Positions 3,587 to 33,116 of a stretch of DNA of 42,754 nucleotides are shown here, piece after piece. The translations under genes and the position numbers were made by a program. Each line of letters begins with the position of its first letter. The stretch's first letter is position 1. The notes beneath the pieces were generated by a model, which was not told where the DNA came from, ran no database searches, and saw nothing but the letters and a program-made list of their open reading frames with translations. The stretch is from a virus. Where the stretch lies: positions 1 to 42,754 of the IMG/VR virus record IMGVR_UViG_3300027742_000016. One strand, written 5' to 3'.

Positions 3587-3703
3587 ATGAGTACTGAAAA
3601 GGAGGATTTGTTTTTGAGATGGTTTCGCCAACAGGGATATACTTGGCGCCAAGCGATTGAAAAAGTAGATAATGTAAAGCTAAAAGAAGAAGGATTAAGC
3701 TAA
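3587..3703 (+). CDS. Hypothetical 38-aa protein
   Basis: A short acidic/basic peptide with an aromatic core (DLFLRWFRQQGYTW). It is packed 2 nt after the AbrB stop and 2 nt before the nuclease-like gene. A similar W-F pattern occurs in the 55-aa protein at 6552 (WVRWFERTWW), so both may belong to one small family. Function unknown. Confidence 0.45.
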   Translation: MSTEKEDLFLRWFRQQGYTWRQAIEKVDNVKLKEEGLS

Positions 3704-3705
3704 AA

Positions 3706-4104
3706 ATGCAAACCGATAAAACAACGTGGAAGAAGCTGGAACAGCGAGTATGCCAAAAATTTTCTGGTGTACGTACTCCGCTATCTGGAAGCAACAGCCA
3801 GCACGGGACCTCTGCGGATTGTATAGGAACCGCATTCCCGGACCTATATATTGAAATCAAACTCCGGGCTTCTTTTTTGCATCATAGCTTGTTTAAAGAC
3901 GCCGCTAAGATGGCGAAGGCAGAAGGCAAGATTCCTTTGCTGGTTACGCATGTTAAGAATGAGGAAAGCGAACTGGTTACGCTGAGAATAGAAGATTTCT
4001 TAGAAATCTCAAACTCCGGCATTGCATCGCAATCTAACCGAGTAACGAAAAAACTATTTCTGATGGATAATGCGATGATTGGTGATTTAGACTTCCGAAG
4101 ATGA
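3706..4104 (+). CDS. PD-(D/E)XK nuclease-like protein (132 aa)
   Basis: The N terminus has WKKLEQRV (Glu12), then RTPLSGSNSQHG, then an acidic residue in SADCIG (Asp38) and the core YIEIKLR (Glu50-x-Lys52). This E-D-ExK order is that of Holliday-junction-resolvase and restriction-type PD-(D/E)XK folds. It overlaps the next gene by 4 nt (ATGA), so the two are translationally coupled. Possible roles are junction or branch resolution before packaging, or host DNA degradation. The fold is fairly likely, the substrate unknown. Confidence 0.6.
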   Translation: MQTDKTTWKKLEQRVCQKFSGVRTPLSGSNSQHGTSADCIGTAFPDLYIEIKLRASFLHHSLFKDAAKMAKAEGKIPLLVTHVKNEESELVTLRIEDFLEISNSGIASQSNRVTKKLFLMDNAMIGDLDFRR

Positions 4105-5896: not shown

Positions 5897-5945
5897 TAGG
5901 ATATCTTTAAGAATATTGTTTTTATGATAAACAAAAATCCTTACT

Positions 5946-5975
5946 ACTCTACTCTACTCTACTCTACTCTACTCT
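5946..5975 (+). repeat. (ACTCT)6 pentanucleotide tandem repeat
   Basis: Six perfect ACTCT units in the non-coding stretch 5897-6031, immediately upstream of an AT tract and TATA box. A simple repeat of this kind can change length by slippage and could alter the spacing of upstream elements from the promoter. Confidence 0.9.
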
Positions 5976-5980
5976 AGAAT

Positions 5981-6031: not shown

Positions 6032-6457
6032 ATGAAAAAAATAATGGAGGACCGGACATCAGTTCTGATTGTGTTGGAGCGAAAACAAGTAGAGAAAATC
6101 GATAAGATAGCAGGGAAAGGGCGTAGAAGCGCGTATATACGAGGGCTGATAGATATATCGGATGAACAACAAGTTGAAAAGGAAATCAAGCTAAAAGAGA
6201 AAAATAAGGGGTTAGAGCGGACGGTTGTAGAATTAAAACAACGACTGGGAACGAATACTGCCATAGCAGCATCCATTGCAGAGCAGACTTTTTCCGAGTA
6301 TCAACGGTGGAAAGCGGGAGTGGAGAATAGTGGTGGAGCAATTAATCTAAAAAACGAATTAAACTGGATTACAATGAGAGCACGAAGCATAAACGTAAAA
6401 CCCATTGATTTCTTAGGAACGCTGCATGGCATGGCGGAAGAGACGGGGAAGAAATAA
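6032..6457 (+). CDS. RHH regulator with coiled coil (141 aa)
   Basis: The N terminus (TSVLIVLERKQVEKIDKIA, then RRSAYIRGLIDI) matches a ribbon-helix-helix DNA-binding domain. Residues ~55-85 (EKEIKLKEKNKGLERTVVEL) form a coiled coil, and a helical tail follows. It probably acts as a dimeric repressor, possibly of its own AT-rich promoter. Monocistronic: own promoter upstream and another at 6487 downstream. Confidence 0.65.
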   Translation: MKKIMEDRTSVLIVLERKQVEKIDKIAGKGRRSAYIRGLIDISDEQQVEKEIKLKEKNKGLERTVVELKQRLGTNTAIAASIAEQTFSEYQRWKAGVENSGGAINLKNELNWITMRARSINVKPIDFLGTLHGMAEETGKK

Positions 6458-10861: not shown

Positions 10862-11860
10862 ATGACCATTAAAAAAGAGTTCAATCGCAGAATAAAGACG
10901 CTCAAATTAACTGAAGAAGAGAAAGAGGAACTATACGCTAAATTTACCGAAAGCTTAGAAAATGGGTTTCTATGTGCGTACTGCGGTGATAAAATGAGTT
11001 TGAAATGGGGCACAAAGTTGAGCTTTTCAATAGATCATACAATCCCCCGCAAATCCGGTGGTAAAGATTCCATAGAAAATCTCGAATTTATTTGTGCTCA
11101 GTGCAATGAAATGAAATCTAATAAATCACCGGACTGGTTTTTTCGTAACGTCAAAAGATTAAAAGAACGGAAATTACATCAAGAACAATTCAAGGCGCAG
11201 AGATCTTCTAAGGACGATAGAGAACGAGAAGCATTTAAGCAGATATTTCAGATGAGGGGGGCGTTAATGCAAAAAGAAGAAACATATCCAATCCCAAAAG
11301 GGATAATAGAAAAAGCCGAGAAGAATCTAAAGGCAGGGAACACAGGAGCTGCACTGAAGCAGATTATAGAGATAGTAAACTTGGTGAAGAACAATCATTC
11401 AAAAATATGCTATCAAAAATCTAAAGTGTATTGTTGGGAAACCCCGCAGGATTTCTTTGACGAACTAAATAAAGAATTCGGCTTTACTCTTGATGTTTGT
11501 GCTAATGAAGAAAATCACAAATGCAATATGTACTTTACCGAAGAAGAAGATGGATTAAGTAAAGATTGGGGTAAAAATGTTTGTTGGATGAATCCACCTT
11601 ATGGATCTAAGATATCTAAATGGGTTAAGAAGGCATTTGAAGAAAGTGAAAAAGAGGCGACTATCGTTTGTCTATTGCCGGCAAGGACAGATACAAGATG
11701 GTGGTGGAACTATTGCATGAAAGGCGAAATACGATTTATTAAAGGAAGATTGAAATTTAAAGGTAAGAATTTAAAAGGTGAACTTGTAAACTATCCTGCC
11801 ACATTTCCCTCGGTTGTCGTAATATTTAAAAACAAATGGACAAAAGAGAAACAGCATTAG
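10862..11860 (+). CDS. HNH nuclease fused to Dam-type DNA adenine methyltransferase (332 aa)
   Basis: Residues ~36-92 are an HNH domain: CAYC (Cys38, Cys41), SIDHTIPRKSGG (Asp58-His59), IENLEF and CAQCN (Cys78, Cys81). A helical linker spans ~95-185. Residues ~188-326 are a phage-type DNA N6-adenine methyltransferase: WETPQDFFDELNKEFGFTLD, then WMNPPYGSKISKWVKKA with the catalytic NPPY (244-247), and a closing substrate strand. Both active sites look complete. The fused layout could pair cleavage and protection in one polypeptide, or target a nuclease to modified DNA; neither is shown. A separate start for the methylase part is not evident. Confidence 0.85.
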   Translation: MTIKKEFNRRIKTLKLTEEEKEELYAKFTESLENGFLCAYCGDKMSLKWGTKLSFSIDHTIPRKSGGKDSIENLEFICAQCNEMKSNKSPDWFFRNVKRLKERKLHQEQFKAQRSSKDDREREAFKQIFQMRGALMQKEETYPIPKGIIEKAEKNLKAGNTGAALKQIIEIVNLVKNNHSKICYQKSKVYCWETPQDFFDELNKEFGFTLDVCANEENHKCNMYFTEEEDGLSKDWGKNVCWMNPPYGSKISKWVKKAFEESEKEATIVCLLPARTDTRWWWNYCMKGEIRFIKGRLKFKGKNLKGELVNYPATFPSVVVIFKNKWTKEKQH

Positions 11861-13830: not shown

Positions 13831-14241
13831 ATGGTACAAAAGAAGCGAAAACGGGGACAACCGGAAAAGGCATCGGTGAAGAAGATAGTGAGTGCCATAA
13901 AGGGCACGGGGGGGCTCAAGACTGCCATCGCTGCTAAGCTCGGCGTACATCGTGAGACTGTACTCAATTATGAAAAGAAATACGAAAGAGTAAGACAAGC
14001 GATAGAGGAAGAAAAAGATAAGATACTTGATAAGGCGGAAAGTAATCTCTTTACGAGAATCCAGGAGGGCGATGAAGACACAAGTAAATGGTTCTTAGCG
14101 CGAAAAGGGAAAAATAGGGGATATTCTGAGAAGATAGATACAGAGCAGAAGATAGAACATAAGGGTGAGATAAAACTATCTAATATTAAAGACACAATTA
14201 ATAAATACAAACATGCACTTGACGAAATCGAAGAAGACTAA
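13831..14241 (+). CDS. terS: Terminase small subunit (136 aa)
   Basis: HTH near residues 25-50 (GGLKTAIAAKLGVHRETVLN), then a coiled-coil oligomerisation helix and the common TerS tail pattern (GDEDTSKWFLARKGKNRGYSEK). It should recognise the packaging site and hand DNA to the large subunit, whose gene overlaps it by 29 nt. A short basic N terminus fits DNA binding. Confidence 0.8.
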   Translation: MVQKKRKRGQPEKASVKKIVSAIKGTGGLKTAIAAKLGVHRETVLNYEKKYERVRQAIEEEKDKILDKAESNLFTRIQEGDEDTSKWFLARKGKNRGYSEKIDTEQKIEHKGEIKLSNIKDTINKYKHALDEIEED

Positions 14242-15553
14242 GCTTTTAGAGTTTCAAGTAACCGTAATAGACAATCCGTACATACCGCATGAACCAACCG
14301 AGAAACAGGCAAAGTTCCTGTTTCAATCCGATTACTTAGAAGGCTTCTACGGTGGGGCTGCTCGTGGAGGAAAAACGGATGCCTTACTTATGGCGGCGCT
14401 ACAATACGTTACAATACCGAATTATGCAGCATTATTACTACGCAGGACATATACTGATCTATCTCTCCCAGATGCCTTGATGGACAGGGCAGAACGATGG
14501 TTTCTCACGAGTGATGCATCATGGCATGAGAAAACAAAGACATGGACTTTTCCCTCTGGTGCTACTTTGACATTTGGATTTCTTGAAAGTGAGCGTGATA
14601 AATACCGTTATCAGGGTGCCGCATTACAATATGTCGGATTTGACGAGCTTTCGCAGTTCACAGAATCGCAATATTCATATCTCTTTTCACGATTGACACG
14701 GCTCGAAGGCGTCAACATCCCTTTAAGAATGCGTACTGCAAGTAACCCTGGCGGAATCGGGCATGAGTGGGTAAAACGGCGATTCATAACTCCGCCTATC
14801 GAGGATATGCAAAAGCAGAACAGGTTTTTCATTCCCGCGTTTCTTGAGGACAATCCTTATGTTGATCAGGAAGCTTATGAAAAATCACTTAACCGCCTTG
14901 ATCCAGTTACCCGTGAACAACTTAGGCACGGTAACTGGGACATAGCAATTGCAGGTAATATGTTCAAACGTGAATGGTTTGAAATTATTGATGCAATACC
15001 GCAAGGTAGTCGGCAAGTCAGGTTTTGGGACATGGCGGCAACTGAGCAAAAAGAAAACAAAGACCCTGACTGGACGGTTGGTTGTCTGCTCGCAGAAAAG
15101 AATGGAATATTTTATGTGGGAAATATCACCCGGTTTCAGAAAACCCCTGCGGATACCGAAATGATTATCAAGCAGACTGCGCAGATGGACGGCATCAGGA
15201 CAAGGATATACGCAGAACAGGAGCCCGGAGCCAGTGGTAAAATTGCAATTGCCCATTACGCTCGCGATGTACTAAAGGGCTATTCGTTTGTGGGCATTCC
15301 AAGCACTGGCTCAAAAGTAACAAGGGCACAGCCATTATCCGCGGCAGCGCAAAACGGCAACGTAAAGATAGTCAATGGAACATGGATAGGTGATATGCTA
15401 TCAGAACTTGTATTATTTCCAACTAAAGGCGTGCATGATGACATAGTGGATGCGATGAGTGGTGCATTCAACGAACTCAACCAAGTTAAGCCAGCTCCCT
15501 CCTCTCACATATCCCCCTTTTTCAATCCCACTGGAGCAGCAAACAGAATATAA
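14213..15553 (+). CDS. terL: Terminase large subunit (446 aa)
   Basis: Packaging motor ATPase and nuclease. Walker A GGAARGGKT (47-55), Walker B LQYVGFDE (138-145) with catalytic Glu, and the motor coupling motif TASNPGG. The C-terminal RNase H-like nuclease has FWDMA (Asp273), YAEQEPGASG (Glu335/337) and HDDIVDA (Asp409/410). Length is normal. No intein or frameshift. The ATG at 14213 overlaps the small-subunit gene. Confidence 0.97.
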   Translation: MHLTKSKKTKLLEFQVTVIDNPYIPHEPTEKQAKFLFQSDYLEGFYGGAARGGKTDALLMAALQYVTIPNYAALLLRRTYTDLSLPDALMDRAERWFLTSDASWHEKTKTWTFPSGATLTFGFLESERDKYRYQGAALQYVGFDELSQFTESQYSYLFSRLTRLEGVNIPLRMRTASNPGGIGHEWVKRRFITPPIEDMQKQNRFFIPAFLEDNPYVDQEAYEKSLNRLDPVTREQLRHGNWDIAIAGNMFKREWFEIIDAIPQGSRQVRFWDMAATEQKENKDPDWTVGCLLAEKNGIFYVGNITRFQKTPADTEMIIKQTAQMDGIRTRIYAEQEPGASGKIAIAHYARDVLKGYSFVGIPSTGSKVTRAQPLSAAAQNGNVKIVNGTWIGDMLSELVLFPTKGVHDDIVDAMSGAFNELNQVKPAPSSHISPFFNPTGAANRI

Positions 15554-15560
15554 AATATAC

Positions 15561-15631
15561 AGCAACCTTACAGCAATCTTATAGCAACTTTGCAGCAACA
15601 TAAAAGCTTATATACAGCAATCTTATAGCAA
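15561..15631 (+). repeat. 11-bp iteron array (AGCAA + YYTTAY) straddling the TATA box of an RHH gene
   Basis: AGCAA starts at 15561, 15572, 15583, 15594, 15616 and 15627, exactly one 11-bp step apart except for the slot at 15605, which holds a degenerate AGCTT. That slot merges with the TATA box (CTTATATA, 15607-15614). The units therefore lie on one face of the DNA helix, on both sides of the promoter of the gene at 15637. Confidence 0.95.
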
Positions 15632-15636
15632 TACTT

Positions 15637-15963
15637 ATGAACAGACAAGGATATAAGGTTGTCAGCCTTAAAGGGGAAGTAATAGAAGAGATAAGGAAAA
15701 GAGCAAAGGAAGAAGATAAGACGCTTTCGGCATTTCTAAAAGATGTATTAAAGCAAGTTTACAGTAATAAAAAGGATAAGGAGTACAGCAATGTTATAGC
15801 AATAGAGTTAAAAGAACAAATCGAAGCGTTAAAAAAGGCGACTTGCAGCATAAATACAGCAACTCAGAAAAGAGAAGAAATAACGTTATCGCTAAAAGAC
15901 AAAGAAGACATAGACACCAGAATCTTGGAGGCTGTCCGGACAGCTTTCAAAGAAATGAGATAA
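15637..15963 (+). CDS. RHH protein, ParR/repressor-like (108 aa)
   Basis: The N terminus (YKVVSLKGEVIEEIRKRAK, then TLSAFLKDVLKQVY) is a ribbon-helix-helix domain. The C-terminal ~60 residues are helical and charged. It starts 6 nt after the last iteron, so it almost certainly binds the array and controls its own promoter. Size, RHH fold and 11-bp iterons flanking the promoter recall plasmid ParR-parC partition systems, but no ParM- or ParA-like NTPase is in the window. More AGCAA pairs at 11-bp spacing lie inside the coding sequence. Confidence 0.75.
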   Translation: MNRQGYKVVSLKGEVIEEIRKRAKEEDKTLSAFLKDVLKQVYSNKKDKEYSNVIAIELKEQIEALKKATCSINTATQKREEITLSLKDKEDIDTRILEAVRTAFKEMR

Positions 15964-15981
15964 GACTACCAGCAAACATTT

Positions 15982-16015
15982 AACCTTTATAAGTTTATGG
16001 TATCTATATAGATAC
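15982..16015 (+). promoter_or_regulatory. Promoter with a 16-bp palindromic operator before 16019
   Basis: CTTTATAAG (15985-15993) is the TATA box. GTATCTATATAGATAC (16000-16015) is a perfect 16-bp palindrome ending 3 nt before the ATG, so a bound dimer would sit over the transcription start of an essentially leaderless mRNA. Confidence 0.65.
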
Positions 16016-16018
16016 ATC

Positions 16019-16279
16019 ATGGAGGATATAAAACGAGAAATGCATAGGATAAGGCAGAGTGATAGAGAATTCTTTAATAGGAAATTAGGCATACGATATA
16101 TGGAGGATAAACAGGTAGATCATGATTGGGAAAACGGATGCACATGTAGAATCCTCTCTCGTAAAGACCATTTTTGGATGGGGATAGAAAGAGGCGAGTG
16201 GAATAGAAAAGGAAGGATGAACGACTTGGAACTTCTTACACGACTTAAGAATATCAAAACTTCTTCGATAATTCTATAA
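16019..16279 (+). CDS. Hypothetical basic protein (86 aa)
   Basis: Starts directly after a palindromic operator. The sequence is basic with DHDWENGCTCRIL and WMGIERGEWNRKG segments, and a helical N terminus (EMHRIRQSDREFFNRKL). No family recognised. Confidence 0.55.
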   Translation: MEDIKREMHRIRQSDREFFNRKLGIRYMEDKQVDHDWENGCTCRILSRKDHFWMGIERGEWNRKGRMNDLELLTRLKNIKTSSIIL

Positions 16280-19114: not shown

Positions 19115-19180
19115 GTAAATCAATACTTAAATATGGCATTCAAAGATATAGAAAAGAAGCGGGCTTAGGTGAGAATAAAA

Positions 19181-19810
19181 ATGAGTGGTAAAACATACTG
19201 CGTTAAATGTGGAAAAGAAATCTGGAAACCCGCGCAAAGATGTAGAAGCTGCTCACATAAAGGTAAGAAATTAAGTATCCAACACAGAGAAGCAATCCGT
19301 CTCGGGAGTCGAGGCAAGCATAATAATAAAGGAAAAAGCAATCCCATGTATGGAAAACATCATAGCGATGCTGCAAAAAGAAAAATATCAGAAGCGGTTT
19401 ACAGATGTGGTCAAAAACAAATAAAAAGTATATCAATGTACATAGATTTTATAAATCCGCTTCAAGTATTATGGCGTCAAAAGATAGATGAGAATGGCCG
19501 ATTACAAGGCTTAGGGTTCTTTCAAATATCACATGTTGGGAAAATGACATTAGAAAAGAGAAGAGAATGCAGTAGAAAATGGGGGCCTATCATGGAAGCA
19601 AAAAGAAAAGGGTTTGGTTATATCGAACTAAATGAAAGATTTGAAGGTAGCGAAGGGCATCATTTGGATAAAGAGCATGTCTTATATATCCCTAAAGAAT
19701 TACATCATACCATTTGGCATAGCGTAATCACGGGGAAGAACATGGATGAAATAAATGATAAAGCTATGGAATGGGCGTTCGGTATTCAAATGGGAGAGAA
19801 TAGGAAATGA
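19181..19810 (+). CDS. Homing endonuclease, NUMOD3 plus HNH-like (209 aa)
   Basis: N-terminal zinc ribbon (CVKCGKE ... CRSCSHKG), then a NUMOD3 DNA-binding motif (NPMYGKHHSDAAKRKISEA, about 48-67) and a C-terminal nuclease core (GHHLDKEHVLYIPKELHHTI). GGTGAG at 19168-19173 supports the ATG at 19181. Just upstream a mini-ORF (19133-19168, MAFKDIEKKRA) looks like the start of another endonuclease N terminus, suggesting an older rearrangement. It interrupts the head operon; no intron boundaries are visible, so it is free-standing. Confidence 0.75.
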   Translation: MSGKTYCVKCGKEIWKPAQRCRSCSHKGKKLSIQHREAIRLGSRGKHNNKGKSNPMYGKHHSDAAKRKISEAVYRCGQKQIKSISMYIDFINPLQVLWRQKIDENGRLQGLGFFQISHVGKMTLEKRRECSRKWGPIMEAKRKGFGYIELNERFEGSEGHHLDKEHVLYIPKELHHTIWHSVITGKNMDEINDKAMEWAFGIQMGENRK

Positions 19811-20340: not shown

Positions 20341-21129
20341 ATGGCAATACTGGAAGAAGAGACCTTTAAGAAGTTCGGATATTATCCGAGCGATTTGAAA
20401 CCACAATCATACAAGCGAATTTTAGCTAAATGCGATGAATGTGGAAAGATAAGGGAAATACGGAAAGATGCTTATCGTTCTCTTTGTATATCATGCGCAA
20501 AAAGTAGCAGACATCTTTCTGAAGGAACAAAAAGAAGAATGAGCGAAGCACATAAAGGTATACATCCTTCAGAAAAAACAAAGAAGAAACAGAGTGATGT
20601 GCAAAGCGGAGAAAAAAATCCCATGTTTGGGAAAAAAGGTAAAAATCACCCAGCTTGGAAAGGCGGTAAAGTAAAACGAAAATGCCTTATTTGCGGTAAA
20701 GAATTTGAAGTATCACCCTGTACAATAAAAAGAGGAAATGGAAAATTTGATTCATATTCATGTGCCAGAAAAGCTAAAAGAATCCCACAACATCATACTA
20801 AACCAGAATTAATCTTTGAACAGATATGTAAAAAGAACAACTTACCTTTTAAATACACCGGCGATGGTTCTTTCTGGATGGGCAAGAATCCTGCCGTCAA
20901 TCCCGACTTTGTAAATTGCAATGGCAAGAAAATGGCGGTAGAAATATTCAGCTATTGGCATGATCCTCTAAGGCGGCATTGTAAAGTGCCTTATTCTCAA
21001 ACTTATAAAGGCAGAAAAGAGATATTAAAGAAATACGGTTGGAAATTAGTTGTTTTCTGGCAAGAGGATTTAGAGTGCGAAGATGCGGAACAATTTGTTT
21101 TAAATAGTTTAAAAAAGAATGGAGTATAA
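20341..21129 (+). CDS. Homing endonuclease, NUMOD3 plus Vsr-like nuclease, copy 1 (262 aa)
   Basis: N-terminal zinc ribbon (CDECGK ... CISCAKSS), NUMOD3-like repeats (NPMFGKKG), a second zinc site (CLICGKEF) absent from its paralogue, then a Vsr/EDxHD-type PD-(D/E)XK domain: QHHTKPELIFEQICKKNNLP, GDGSFWMG, NPDFV and MAVEIF. Closely related to 38680-39354 in both end domains, including EDAEQFVLNSLKK. Own promoter; inserted between the head genes. Likely cuts and spreads into uninterrupted relatives. Confidence 0.8.
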   Translation: MAILEEETFKKFGYYPSDLKPQSYKRILAKCDECGKIREIRKDAYRSLCISCAKSSRHLSEGTKRRMSEAHKGIHPSEKTKKKQSDVQSGEKNPMFGKKGKNHPAWKGGKVKRKCLICGKEFEVSPCTIKRGNGKFDSYSCARKAKRIPQHHTKPELIFEQICKKNNLPFKYTGDGSFWMGKNPAVNPDFVNCNGKKMAVEIFSYWHDPLRRHCKVPYSQTYKGRKEILKKYGWKLVVFWQEDLECEDAEQFVLNSLKKNGV

Positions 21130-23008: not shown

Positions 23009-23356
23009 TTGAGACCCCGGAGCGATAACAGGCAAGGGCGCAATAATTGCATCTCAGGAAGAATCCCTGATAATATTGACGAGCTCATTGACATGTTGGT
23101 GGAGAAGGAAGGCATTTCACGCAGTCAAATTGTCTACGAGGCACTTAGCGAATACGTAGAAAAGAAAACACAGGGCAACTTTATCATAGATGATTACACA
23201 AGAGAAATCTTGGAAACCAACGAATTCTTTATTATCAAACGCGATGAAGATGAAGACGGTATGCTGGTCGGTTCAGTACGCGGTCATTGTGCGAAGGGCA
23301 AGATGATAAGCGAACTGATAGTGAATTTAAAAGAGGAGATAGAGAAAGAGTTGTAA
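23009..23356 (+). CDS. RHH (CopG-like) regulator (115 aa), TTG start
   Basis: Residues ~13-52 (NCISGRIPDNIDELIDMLV, then ISRSQIVYEALSEYVEKK) form a CopG-type ribbon-helix-helix. The C-terminal part is alpha/beta and acidic. TTG start supported by AGGAGG 10 nt upstream. It lies directly before late promoter 2, making it a candidate controller of capsid gene expression; this is inference. Confidence 0.7.
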   Translation: MRPRSDNRQGRNNCISGRIPDNIDELIDMLVEKEGISRSQIVYEALSEYVEKKTQGNFIIDDYTREILETNEFFIIKRDEDEDGMLVGSVRGHCAKGKMISELIVNLKEEIEKEL

Positions 23357-27948: not shown

Positions 27949-28839
27949 ATGAGCTTCGCTATCCAAGATCATTTCGCCGATCCTATCCTGGATGATATGC
28001 TTAGCCGAGAGGTTATTGTTGATAACCGCAGCAATAGCAACGAACTTGAGGATTATCAGGTCAGCCTTGAAATAGATGAGAAGCAACTGTTTTTCGAGGT
28101 GCAGGATGGCTTGCGGTTCGTTGATGAGAATTTACAAATCATAGATCACTGGAATGAATCCTTTCCTGATAAGGAATGGATTGAAGTGCCAAAGATACCT
28201 TCTTCTGCAATCTGCGCTTTAAGAATGCTCGACGGTGATGCGAGTTCTGCGAGCAATGGAACGAATACGTTTTTGTTCTTTGATGATTTTCCAGGAAGCA
28301 GCATAGACACATCAAAATGGTCAGTTACTGGAAACGGAATTAGTGTTTCTGGAAGTATTGTTACTCTAACTACATCCAGTACAAACACCCAAAATCGCTT
28401 AACTTCGCTTACAGACTGGTCAAAAAATAATAGTTCAAGTCTCCGAGCGCGTTTAAAAACTCAATATTCCGGAGCAACAAATCGAGGTGAACAAACTTTT
28501 GGTGCAAGTGATAATACTTACTATATAACAGCAGAATATAATCACAGACACTCTCAATACAGTGGTAAATATTATAGTAATTATAATGGTGATGGTTTCT
28601 CAAATATAGTTGGCTGGGCAGCAGACACATGGAAAATTCAAGAACTCAAACGACCTGGTTTAGCTCGATGGACAGTCAACGATGCTAACCAAGTAAATCA
28701 CTCAAGCTACTATCCAACAAATGACTATCCTATTTGGATAAGAGCTGATTATAATACTAATCCTGCAACCATGTGGGTTGATTGGATTCTCATCCGCAAA
28801 TACGCCTCAACTGAGCCTCTTACATATATAGGTATGTGA
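27949..28839 (+). CDS. DUF2341/concanavalin-lectin-like adhesin, copy 2 (296 aa)
   Basis: Full DUF2341 start (VIVDNRSNSNELEDYQVSLE ... FVDENLQIIDHW ... WIEVPKIP) followed by SSASNG and the lectin-like FFDDF...SKWSV domain. DNA from 28243 to 28818 matches 1376-1950 closely on both flanks but not in the centre (protein around SDNTYYITAEYNH), which points to a variable ligand-binding face. It lies next to other fibre genes and probably binds host surface glycans. Confidence 0.7.
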   Translation: MSFAIQDHFADPILDDMLSREVIVDNRSNSNELEDYQVSLEIDEKQLFFEVQDGLRFVDENLQIIDHWNESFPDKEWIEVPKIPSSAICALRMLDGDASSASNGTNTFLFFDDFPGSSIDTSKWSVTGNGISVSGSIVTLTTSSTNTQNRLTSLTDWSKNNSSSLRARLKTQYSGATNRGEQTFGASDNTYYITAEYNHRHSQYSGKYYSNYNGDGFSNIVGWAADTWKIQELKRPGLARWTVNDANQVNHSSYYPTNDYPIWIRADYNTNPATMWVDWILIRKYASTEPLTYIGM

Positions 28840-31874: not shown

Positions 31875-33116
31875 TTGAGAAAAACCATCTTGCTTAATTG
31901 CTTACCGCTTACGGCGAAGAAGAAAGGCATACTTGATAGCTTCTTCTCCGAATTTCTGCACGTACTCAATCTCACTTTTGAGCAACTTCCGAATGCTAAA
32001 TCGTCTAACGAGCTGCATCATCTTACATATTCAAACATCCGCTCCACCTCCTTCCTGTCTTCTGATATTGTGCAAGAAGCCCGTAAAGATGTCTGGGCAA
32101 AAAGGAAGACTGTTAAGAACGGCTTTAAGCGATGCGATATTCGGTTGAATACAAGATGGTTCAAGTTCTTTACGACTAAAAGGGGGACACCATGTTTTAA
32201 GGTTACTTACTCTCCACGCAAGACGTTTGTTATTCCCATTAAGGCAGATAACGGGTTTACACGGTTCAACACATTTATCAAAGATGGATGGATGATTAAA
32301 GCCATATCGCTTCTTGACAATAAGATTGCGGTCTCTATTGAAAAGGCATATCTCGAACCTACTAATAATCGGAGATATGTTGTTGGTGTTGATGTCGGTT
32401 CCGCTACGCTCGCTGCGGTAACGGTTTTTGATACCGAAACTGGGAAGACTGTCAAACAACTTTATCTTGGTAGGGACGTAGCTATTAGACAGAGGGACTA
32501 TCTTAAGAGAAAACAGGTACTTCAAAGCCATGCTGATAGTGGTTCGGAAAACGCTAAGAAGTATCTTAGAAAGCTTAAACGCAAACAGGCGAACTTCGTT
32601 AAGACCAGAAGCGGACAGGTTGCAAAAGACATTATTAACCTTGCTCGCTCTTTTAATGCTTCTATTGCTATTGAGAAACTTAGTATCCAAGGACGACGAC
32701 ATAAGTTCAACAGGAAGACGAACCAGAAGATCAACCATATCCCGTATGCTCAGTTGCGTGAATTCCTTATGTCTAATTGTAACGAGTTTGAAATACCTCT
32801 TGACCAGAAAGACGCTTACCACACTTCCAAATGGTGTCCATATTGTGGTTCGGTGAATCCAGGGCATAGTTCGGTGAATTACGCCCTGTATGTGTGTAAG
32901 AATTGTGGTAAGGTGGTGAATAGCGATAGAAAAGCATCACTTGCTATTGCTATCAAATCGGCACTGGAGCGGGAATATTCTCAAGGTCTCACCACCCTTT
33001 TTACCCAGTTTTCCAGTGCTGGAGTTGTTGTAGACCAGCTTTGGCGTCCAGATGACGAGTTTTGTGTTTTCGCTGTGCGACATATCACTTCTCCGATGGA
33101 AAGCAAACGGCTTTAG
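31875..33116 (+). CDS. tnpB: TnpB RNA-guided nuclease (413 aa)
   Basis: Full-length TnpB/Fanzor-type protein. RuvC-I GVDVG (Asp173), RuvC-II IAIEKLSI (Glu267), zinc finger CPYC ... CKNC (Cys321, 324, 341, 344) and RuvC-III NSDRKASLAIA (Asp351) are all present, so the nuclease is predicted active. N-terminal WED/REC region is normal. It should use an RNA from the element's right end to cut DNA next to a short motif, favouring retention of the element. TTG start. Inserted between the connector and tail genes. Confidence 0.93.
   Translation: MRKTILLNCLPLTAKKKGILDSFFSEFLHVLNLTFEQLPNAKSSNELHHLTYSNIRSTSFLSSDIVQEARKDVWAKRKTVKNGFKRCDIRLNTRWFKFFTTKRGTPCFKVTYSPRKTFVIPIKADNGFTRFNTFIKDGWMIKAISLLDNKIAVSIEKAYLEPTNNRRYVVGVDVGSATLAAVTVFDTETGKTVKQLYLGRDVAIRQRDYLKRKQVLQSHADSGSENAKKYLRKLKRKQANFVKTRSGQVAKDIINLARSFNASIAIEKLSIQGRRHKFNRKTNQKINHIPYAQLREFLMSNCNEFEIPLDQKDAYHTSKWCPYCGSVNPGHSSVNYALYVCKNCGKVVNSDRKASLAIAIKSALEREYSQGLTTLFTQFSSAGVVVDQLWRPDDEFCVFAVRHITSPMESKRL

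Follow-up and report, generated by a model that had tools for sequence, protein, structure and literature searches.

An array of 11-bp repeats across the promoter of an RHH gene, a candidate autorepressor operator in an archaeal tailed virus

The RHH proteins F55, SvtR and AvtR are archaeal-virus regulators that act on viral promoters, F55 and SvtR also on their own, and regulators of the RHH type are able to form oligomers that run along DNA towards the BRE and TATA box (PMC5569661). F55 of SSV1 binds tandem repeats with an 11-letter consensus (ATAGATAGAGT) that overlap the BRE and transcription start site, its own promoter included, and SvtR of SIRV1 represses its own promoter and has been proposed to polymerise into the BRE/TATA region (PMC5569661). 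A different use of an RHH protein is known from plasmid R1, where the parC site of ParR consists of 11-bp direct repeats grouped on both sides of a promoter in two sets of five and works with the actin-like motor ParM; a pair of iterons is enough for ParR to bind (PMC4949242; PMC9426499).

We analysed a 42.7-kb stretch of viral DNA (IMG/VR record IMGVR_UViG_3300027742_000016, positions 1 to 42,754; the window) in which 11-bp direct repeats lie across the promoter of a gene for a 108-aa protein. The locus shares with F55 an RHH protein of an archaeal virus and tandem direct repeats at that protein's own promoter, but the repeat sequence is different, F55 (~6.3 kDa, compared to 108 aa here) has only one or two repeat pairs per promoter, and the array in the window has seven slots and is followed by further pairs inside the gene. 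AvtR of Acidianus filamentous virus 6, likewise an archaeal-virus RHH regulator, is the best RHH-fold match in the PDB, but it carries two RHH motifs per chain and recognises a partly inverted-repeat consensus, whereas the protein examined here has one RHH motif followed by a long helix and is associated with direct repeats. SvtR is an own-promoter repressor, as we propose for the protein here, but has an imperfect inverted repeat as its consensus. The locus resembles ParR/parC in the combination of an RHH protein with 11-bp direct repeats grouped on both sides of a promoter; in contrast to R1, the array precedes the RHH gene and a motor was not found. The elements of the promoter region are as follows.

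14213-15553: TerL.
15557-15600, plus strand: upstream iteron group of four 11-bp units, ATACAGCAACC, TTACAGCAATC, TTATAGCAACT and TTGCAGCAACA, with cores at 15561, 15572, 15583 and 15594 (direct reading, period scan).
15601-15616, plus strand: putative core promoter in the fifth slot, a BRE-like TAAAAG and the TATA box CTTATATA (sequence).
15612-15633, plus strand: downstream iteron group of two 11-bp units, ATACAGCAATC and TTATAGCAATA, with cores at 15616 and 15627 (reading, period scan, unit matrix).
15637-15963, plus strand: RHH protein (108 aa; long helix at the C-terminus), putative iteron binder (ORF, profile, PDB and structure matches, homologue).

The seven slots start at 15561, 15572, 15583, 15594, 15605, 15616 and 15627, and all but the fifth carry the core AGCAA in one 11-bp register; the fifth (15605) has AGCTT instead, within AAAAGCTTATATA. 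This is the array described in the initial annotation, six AGCAA slots plus an AGCTT fused to the TATA box, and direct reading, a period scan and shuffling all confirm it. No other 5-mer in the window has at least four copies at one fixed period (6 to 30 bp), none of 100 dinucleotide-preserving shuffles of the window reached that number, and the array (15561-15631) was also detected by Tandem Repeats Finder. The units of the upstream group score 14.2-16.9 bits against the unit matrix described below. The downstream group keeps the register of the upstream one and occupies the interval from the TATA box to the start codon. The TATA box begins ~27-30 bp 5' of the ATG at 15637, and this distance suggests that the mRNA of the RHH gene is probably leaderless or nearly so. 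The repeats thus occupy and flank the BRE and TATA box and fill the space up to the apparently leaderless start: as in regulators of the F55, SvtR and AvtR type, a repeated motif overlaps the BRE, TATA box and start of the regulator's own gene. The asymmetric 11-bp unit, approximately WTAYAGCAAYN, is a candidate recognition site of RHH dimers.

The 108-aa protein was matched by the Pfam families RHH_1 and CopG_antitoxin, both below the cut-off, and its best PDB sequence match was AvtR (E = 0.012; profile E = 0.018). In the predicted structure, a single-sequence monomer model (mean pLDDT 64.8) that cannot show the dimeric ribbon, helices at residues 13-25 and 30-43 (pLDDT 71-80) are followed by a long helix at 48-107. 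Foldseek returned mostly CopG, Arc, CdbA, MatP and AvtR structures, no match being individually significant. Weak one by one but concordant, the Pfam, PDB, model and Foldseek matches bear out the identification of this ORF as an RHH protein that had been made from the sequence alone, and the weakness of each match counts against the autorepressor reading proposed below.

Two other ORFs in the window are, or may be, of a related kind. A second RHH gene (23009-23353; RHH_1, E = 5.9e-7) has a possible TTG start and is preceded by AACATTTATATAC. The ORF at 6032-6457 (TSVLIVLERKQVEKIDKIAGKGRRSAYIRGLI) resembles an RHH domain plus coiled coil by eye and had no Pfam or PDB family match; upstream of it are a perfect 5-bp tandem array (CTACT x6.6, 5944-5976) and, after the array, a TATA-like (AT)n stretch, and this might be a second RHH gene with a repeat operator.

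That the DNA comes from an archaeal virus, as the initial annotation had it, is borne out by TerL, which is 50% identical to that of psiM2, by a capsid-like protein that shares 50% identity with vir524 of Methanomicrobiales, and by TATA-like boxes, which precede 9 of the 47 listed starts in the window at a distance of 15-60 bp, where 1.7 were expected. Together these features support a tailed virus of methanogen type. In the packaging/head region, the RHH gene has terL on one side and the portal gene on the other, and its array lies ~8 bp from the end of terL. The two ORFs that follow it (86 and 148 aa) matched no Pfam family. A contig that shares TerS (70% identity) and TerL (79%) with the window (L016) had no detectable match to the window's portal, and therefore the RHH gene and these two ORFs appear to sit at a module border. 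The presence of NUMOD3 homing-endonuclease-like genes nearby is in keeping with insertion of a mobile gene that carries a promoter of its own.

Mobile-type genes are numerous in the window and include two NUMOD3 ORFs, an ORF resembling an HNH-Dam methylase fusion and an OrfB/TnpB-like ORF whose TNB domain is Cas12f1-like.

19169-19810, 20341-21129, 10862-11860 and 31875-33116: mobile-type genes.

A 592-bp stretch is duplicated at 87.5% identity 27 kb apart (1375-1956 and 28241-28827). A perfect 14-bp palindrome, TATCTATATAGATA (16001-16014), separates a TATA-like box from the 86-aa ORF, which starts at 16019, and is possibly the operator of another regulator. A simple scan found no intrinsic terminators.

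Using a weight matrix built from the six promoter units only, we scored all 11-bp-spaced pairs on both strands of the whole window. The three best pairs outside the array (15752, 15787 and 15847) all fall within the 327-bp RHH gene and on the same strand, at 17.0-22.6 bits, compared to 10.3 bits for the next best pair anywhere.

15748-15769, plus strand: intragenic pair 1, TTAAAGCAAGT TTACAGTAATA (17.0 bits, third best outside the array).
15783-15804, plus strand: intragenic pair 2, GTACAGCAATG TTATAGCAATA (22.6 bits, best outside the array).
15843-15864, plus strand: intragenic pair 3, TTGCAGCATAA ATACAGCAACT (20.0 bits, second best outside the array).

The last of these is in register with the promoter array (15847 is 26 x 11 bp from 15561) and the others are not. 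When synonymous codons were resampled with the codon usage of the window (20,000 trials), P was 0.014 for the best-scoring pair (pair 2), 0.0006 for the second best and 0.00015 for the third best, and the summed score of the three was reached in none of the trials. Because of these values, the protein sequence alone does not explain the pairs, which are mainly a nucleotide-level feature. Permuting the gene's own codons gave, in the same order of rank, P = 0.095, 0.0135 and 0.00125, and 0.001 for the summed score; that the best pair is less extreme under this synonymous permutation within the gene (P = 0.095) speaks against the autorepressor reading. The putative operator is larger than the initial annotation saw, since its repeats run on into the RHH gene.

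A search of 393 genomes of the phylum with the RHH protein found one clear homologue, a 72-aa ORF on a 6.1-kb contig (L135/L140) with 50% identity over residues 2-47 (E = 2.6e-8), an aligned region that includes VSLKGEV. The portal and Mu F-like proteins of this contig are 54% and 49% identical to those of the window, and on these identities it is a related archaeal virus or provirus, in which the RHH gene lies between the portal and Mu F genes. An exact unit, TTACAGCAACT, stands directly 5' of the TATA box of the homologue. It is the best matrix match in the whole contig (15.5 bits, P ~2e-6 per position), a score found once among 210,544 background positions, and the second-best match is found further upstream, at a distance of 77 bp (7 x 11). 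The contig has one good unit only and no array. Thus the 11-bp phasing that the initial annotation had expected relatives to conserve is absent from the only relative found, though the unit itself is kept. This single comparison suggests that the 11-bp unit accompanies the RHH protein and that the multi-copy array is so far confined to the virus of the window; for the autorepressor reading it also means that cooperative binding to an array would not be conserved.

No homologues of the RHH protein were found in IMG/VR, phage records or plasmids, the phage records having been queried also with the relative's protein, and a portal-based search for relatives found none in IMG/VR and one in the order searched. 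Conservation of the array beside terL is ruled out by L016 and a second TerL relative (L017, 70% identity), neither of which has the array or an RHH gene after terL, and psiM2 keeps terL without the array. A more distant gene of the RHH-coiled-coil type (E = 6.7e-4) occurs in an archaeal genome (L146, 1300-1450). The DNA upstream of it contains TTGCAGC several times, in either orientation, and this agrees, although weakly, with the association of the unit and this RHH protein.

We propose, with a probability of about 0.7, that the locus is a cooperative autorepressor operator of the RHH gene that has been expanded in this virus, and thus that it probably serves ordinary self-regulation rather than a plasmid-type DNA-sorting machine. 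RHH dimers would recognise the unit WTAYAGCAAYN, and the 11-bp register suggests that neighbouring dimers bind cooperatively along one face of the helix. The four upstream units might seed a filament that crosses the BRE/TATA slot, reaches the two units preceding the start codon and excludes TBP, TFB and RNA polymerase, such that the protein would shut off its own transcription as it accumulates. The three intragenic pairs would extend the bound region, perhaps as extra nucleation sites or as a roadblock, and the array may have grown in this virus from a simpler operator like that of L140. Of the roles first suggested for the array (autoregulation, or a partition, origin or packaging site), autoregulation gains from the repeats at the BRE and TATA box, their continuation into the gene and the unit at the homologue's TATA box; the others are without positive support.

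It is unlikely that the array is instead a neutral minisatellite, spread by slippage, whose overlap with the promoter and gene is due to chance. Comparable 11-bp AGCAA arrays do occur in the intergenic DNA of many bacteria. The array pattern was matched in 36 genome stretches and 29 viral stretches, mostly unrelated phages and bacterial intergenic repeats, and a control with the motif reversed matched 25 viral stretches, almost as many. AGCAA arrays are not notably enriched in viruses, and because the reversed control showed no clear excess for the real motif, recurrence elsewhere was not used as evidence. Against a minisatellite, the units in the window have a constant core but vary at the free positions, the intragenic pairs are in a different register and inside a translated ORF, and L140, which has no array, carries an exact unit at the homologue's TATA box. 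Against the autorepressor reading, many tandem AGCAA arrays adjoin genes that are not of RHH type, and therefore an array alone is no proof of an RHH partner.

Several of these other arrays are described here in their own right. In a Nitrospira genome (L049, ~3600-4100, reverse strand) a long 11-bp AGCAA array lies upstream of an RHH_6 gene (E = 7e-26) that is followed by a PIN-like start. In phage L010 (6607-6640, reverse strand), AGCAACGTTAC repeats extend to the start codon of an ORF whose beginning looks RHH-like by eye but has no Pfam support. Bacterial phage genes of DUF1376 type (L080, L084, L086, L093 and L095; the type is confirmed for the L086/L093 family only) contain 11-bp AGCAA repeats inside the ORF, and in another ORF family (L082) they stand immediately 5' of the ORF; both sets are possibly replication iterons. 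In L012, AGCAA iterons precede an ORF resembling a terminase small subunit. An array in Methanimicrococcus (L053) was rejected as a counterpart: its neighbour, which we read as a chromosomal ORF between CYTH/CHAD-like and polyphosphate-kinase-like genes, has no detectable similarity to the RHH protein of the window.

The promoter array and the three intragenic pairs (~300 bp, 15557-15864) might also form one extended RHH complex that goes beyond repression, a motor-less site of centromere or compaction type on a tailed archaeal virus genome, but we give this only an outside chance.

We consider it still less probable that RHH protein and iterons are a centromere-like complex (parC or ParG type), with which a host or unsampled motor segregates a plasmid-like viral genome and of which autoregulation is a by-product. 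The direct repeats flanking the promoter and the RHH domain with its C-terminal helical part do resemble ParR/parC, and each intragenic pair has the two iterons that are enough for binding of R1 ParR. In known ParMRC systems parC is usually upstream of the motor gene. Here the repeats precede the RHH gene instead, and that gene lies in the packaging/head region beside mosaic borders. Phage B83 does combine ParM, an RHH protein and iterons (PMC6669507). In agreement with the initial annotation, no ParM- or ParA-like motor was found in the window: ~55 scanned ORFs gave no Pfam match to ParA, ParM or TubZ, in a record that is without terminal repeats and may be incomplete. With no match for the motor, repeats before the RHH gene and a geometry absent from the relative L140, membership of parC or of ParMRC type II is not supported, and the parC-like role first suggested for the array is left without positive support.

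Least probable of all is a replication origin (initiator iterons) or packaging site beside terminase, for which the AGCAA iterons inside DUF1376-type phage genes and before the terminase-like ORF of L012 and the short distance to terL may be cited, but GC skew, proposed earlier as a means to map an origin, keeps one sign throughout the window with no switch near 15.5 kb, L016, L017 and psiM2 keep terL without the array, and the motif goes with the RHH gene rather than with terL, sitting in L140 between the portal and Mu F genes. Pfam gave no initiator-like match next to the array.

As a cooperative autorepressor operator, the locus would extend the small set of known archaeal-virus RHH regulators by one from a tailed virus of methane-cycling archaea, with a multi-site operator that can be clearly read. 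The two related viruses, one with an array and the other with a single site, make it possible to test directly if cooperativity is tuned by the number of iterons. The locus would also indicate that a parC-like appearance can arise from the expansion of an autoregulatory operator.
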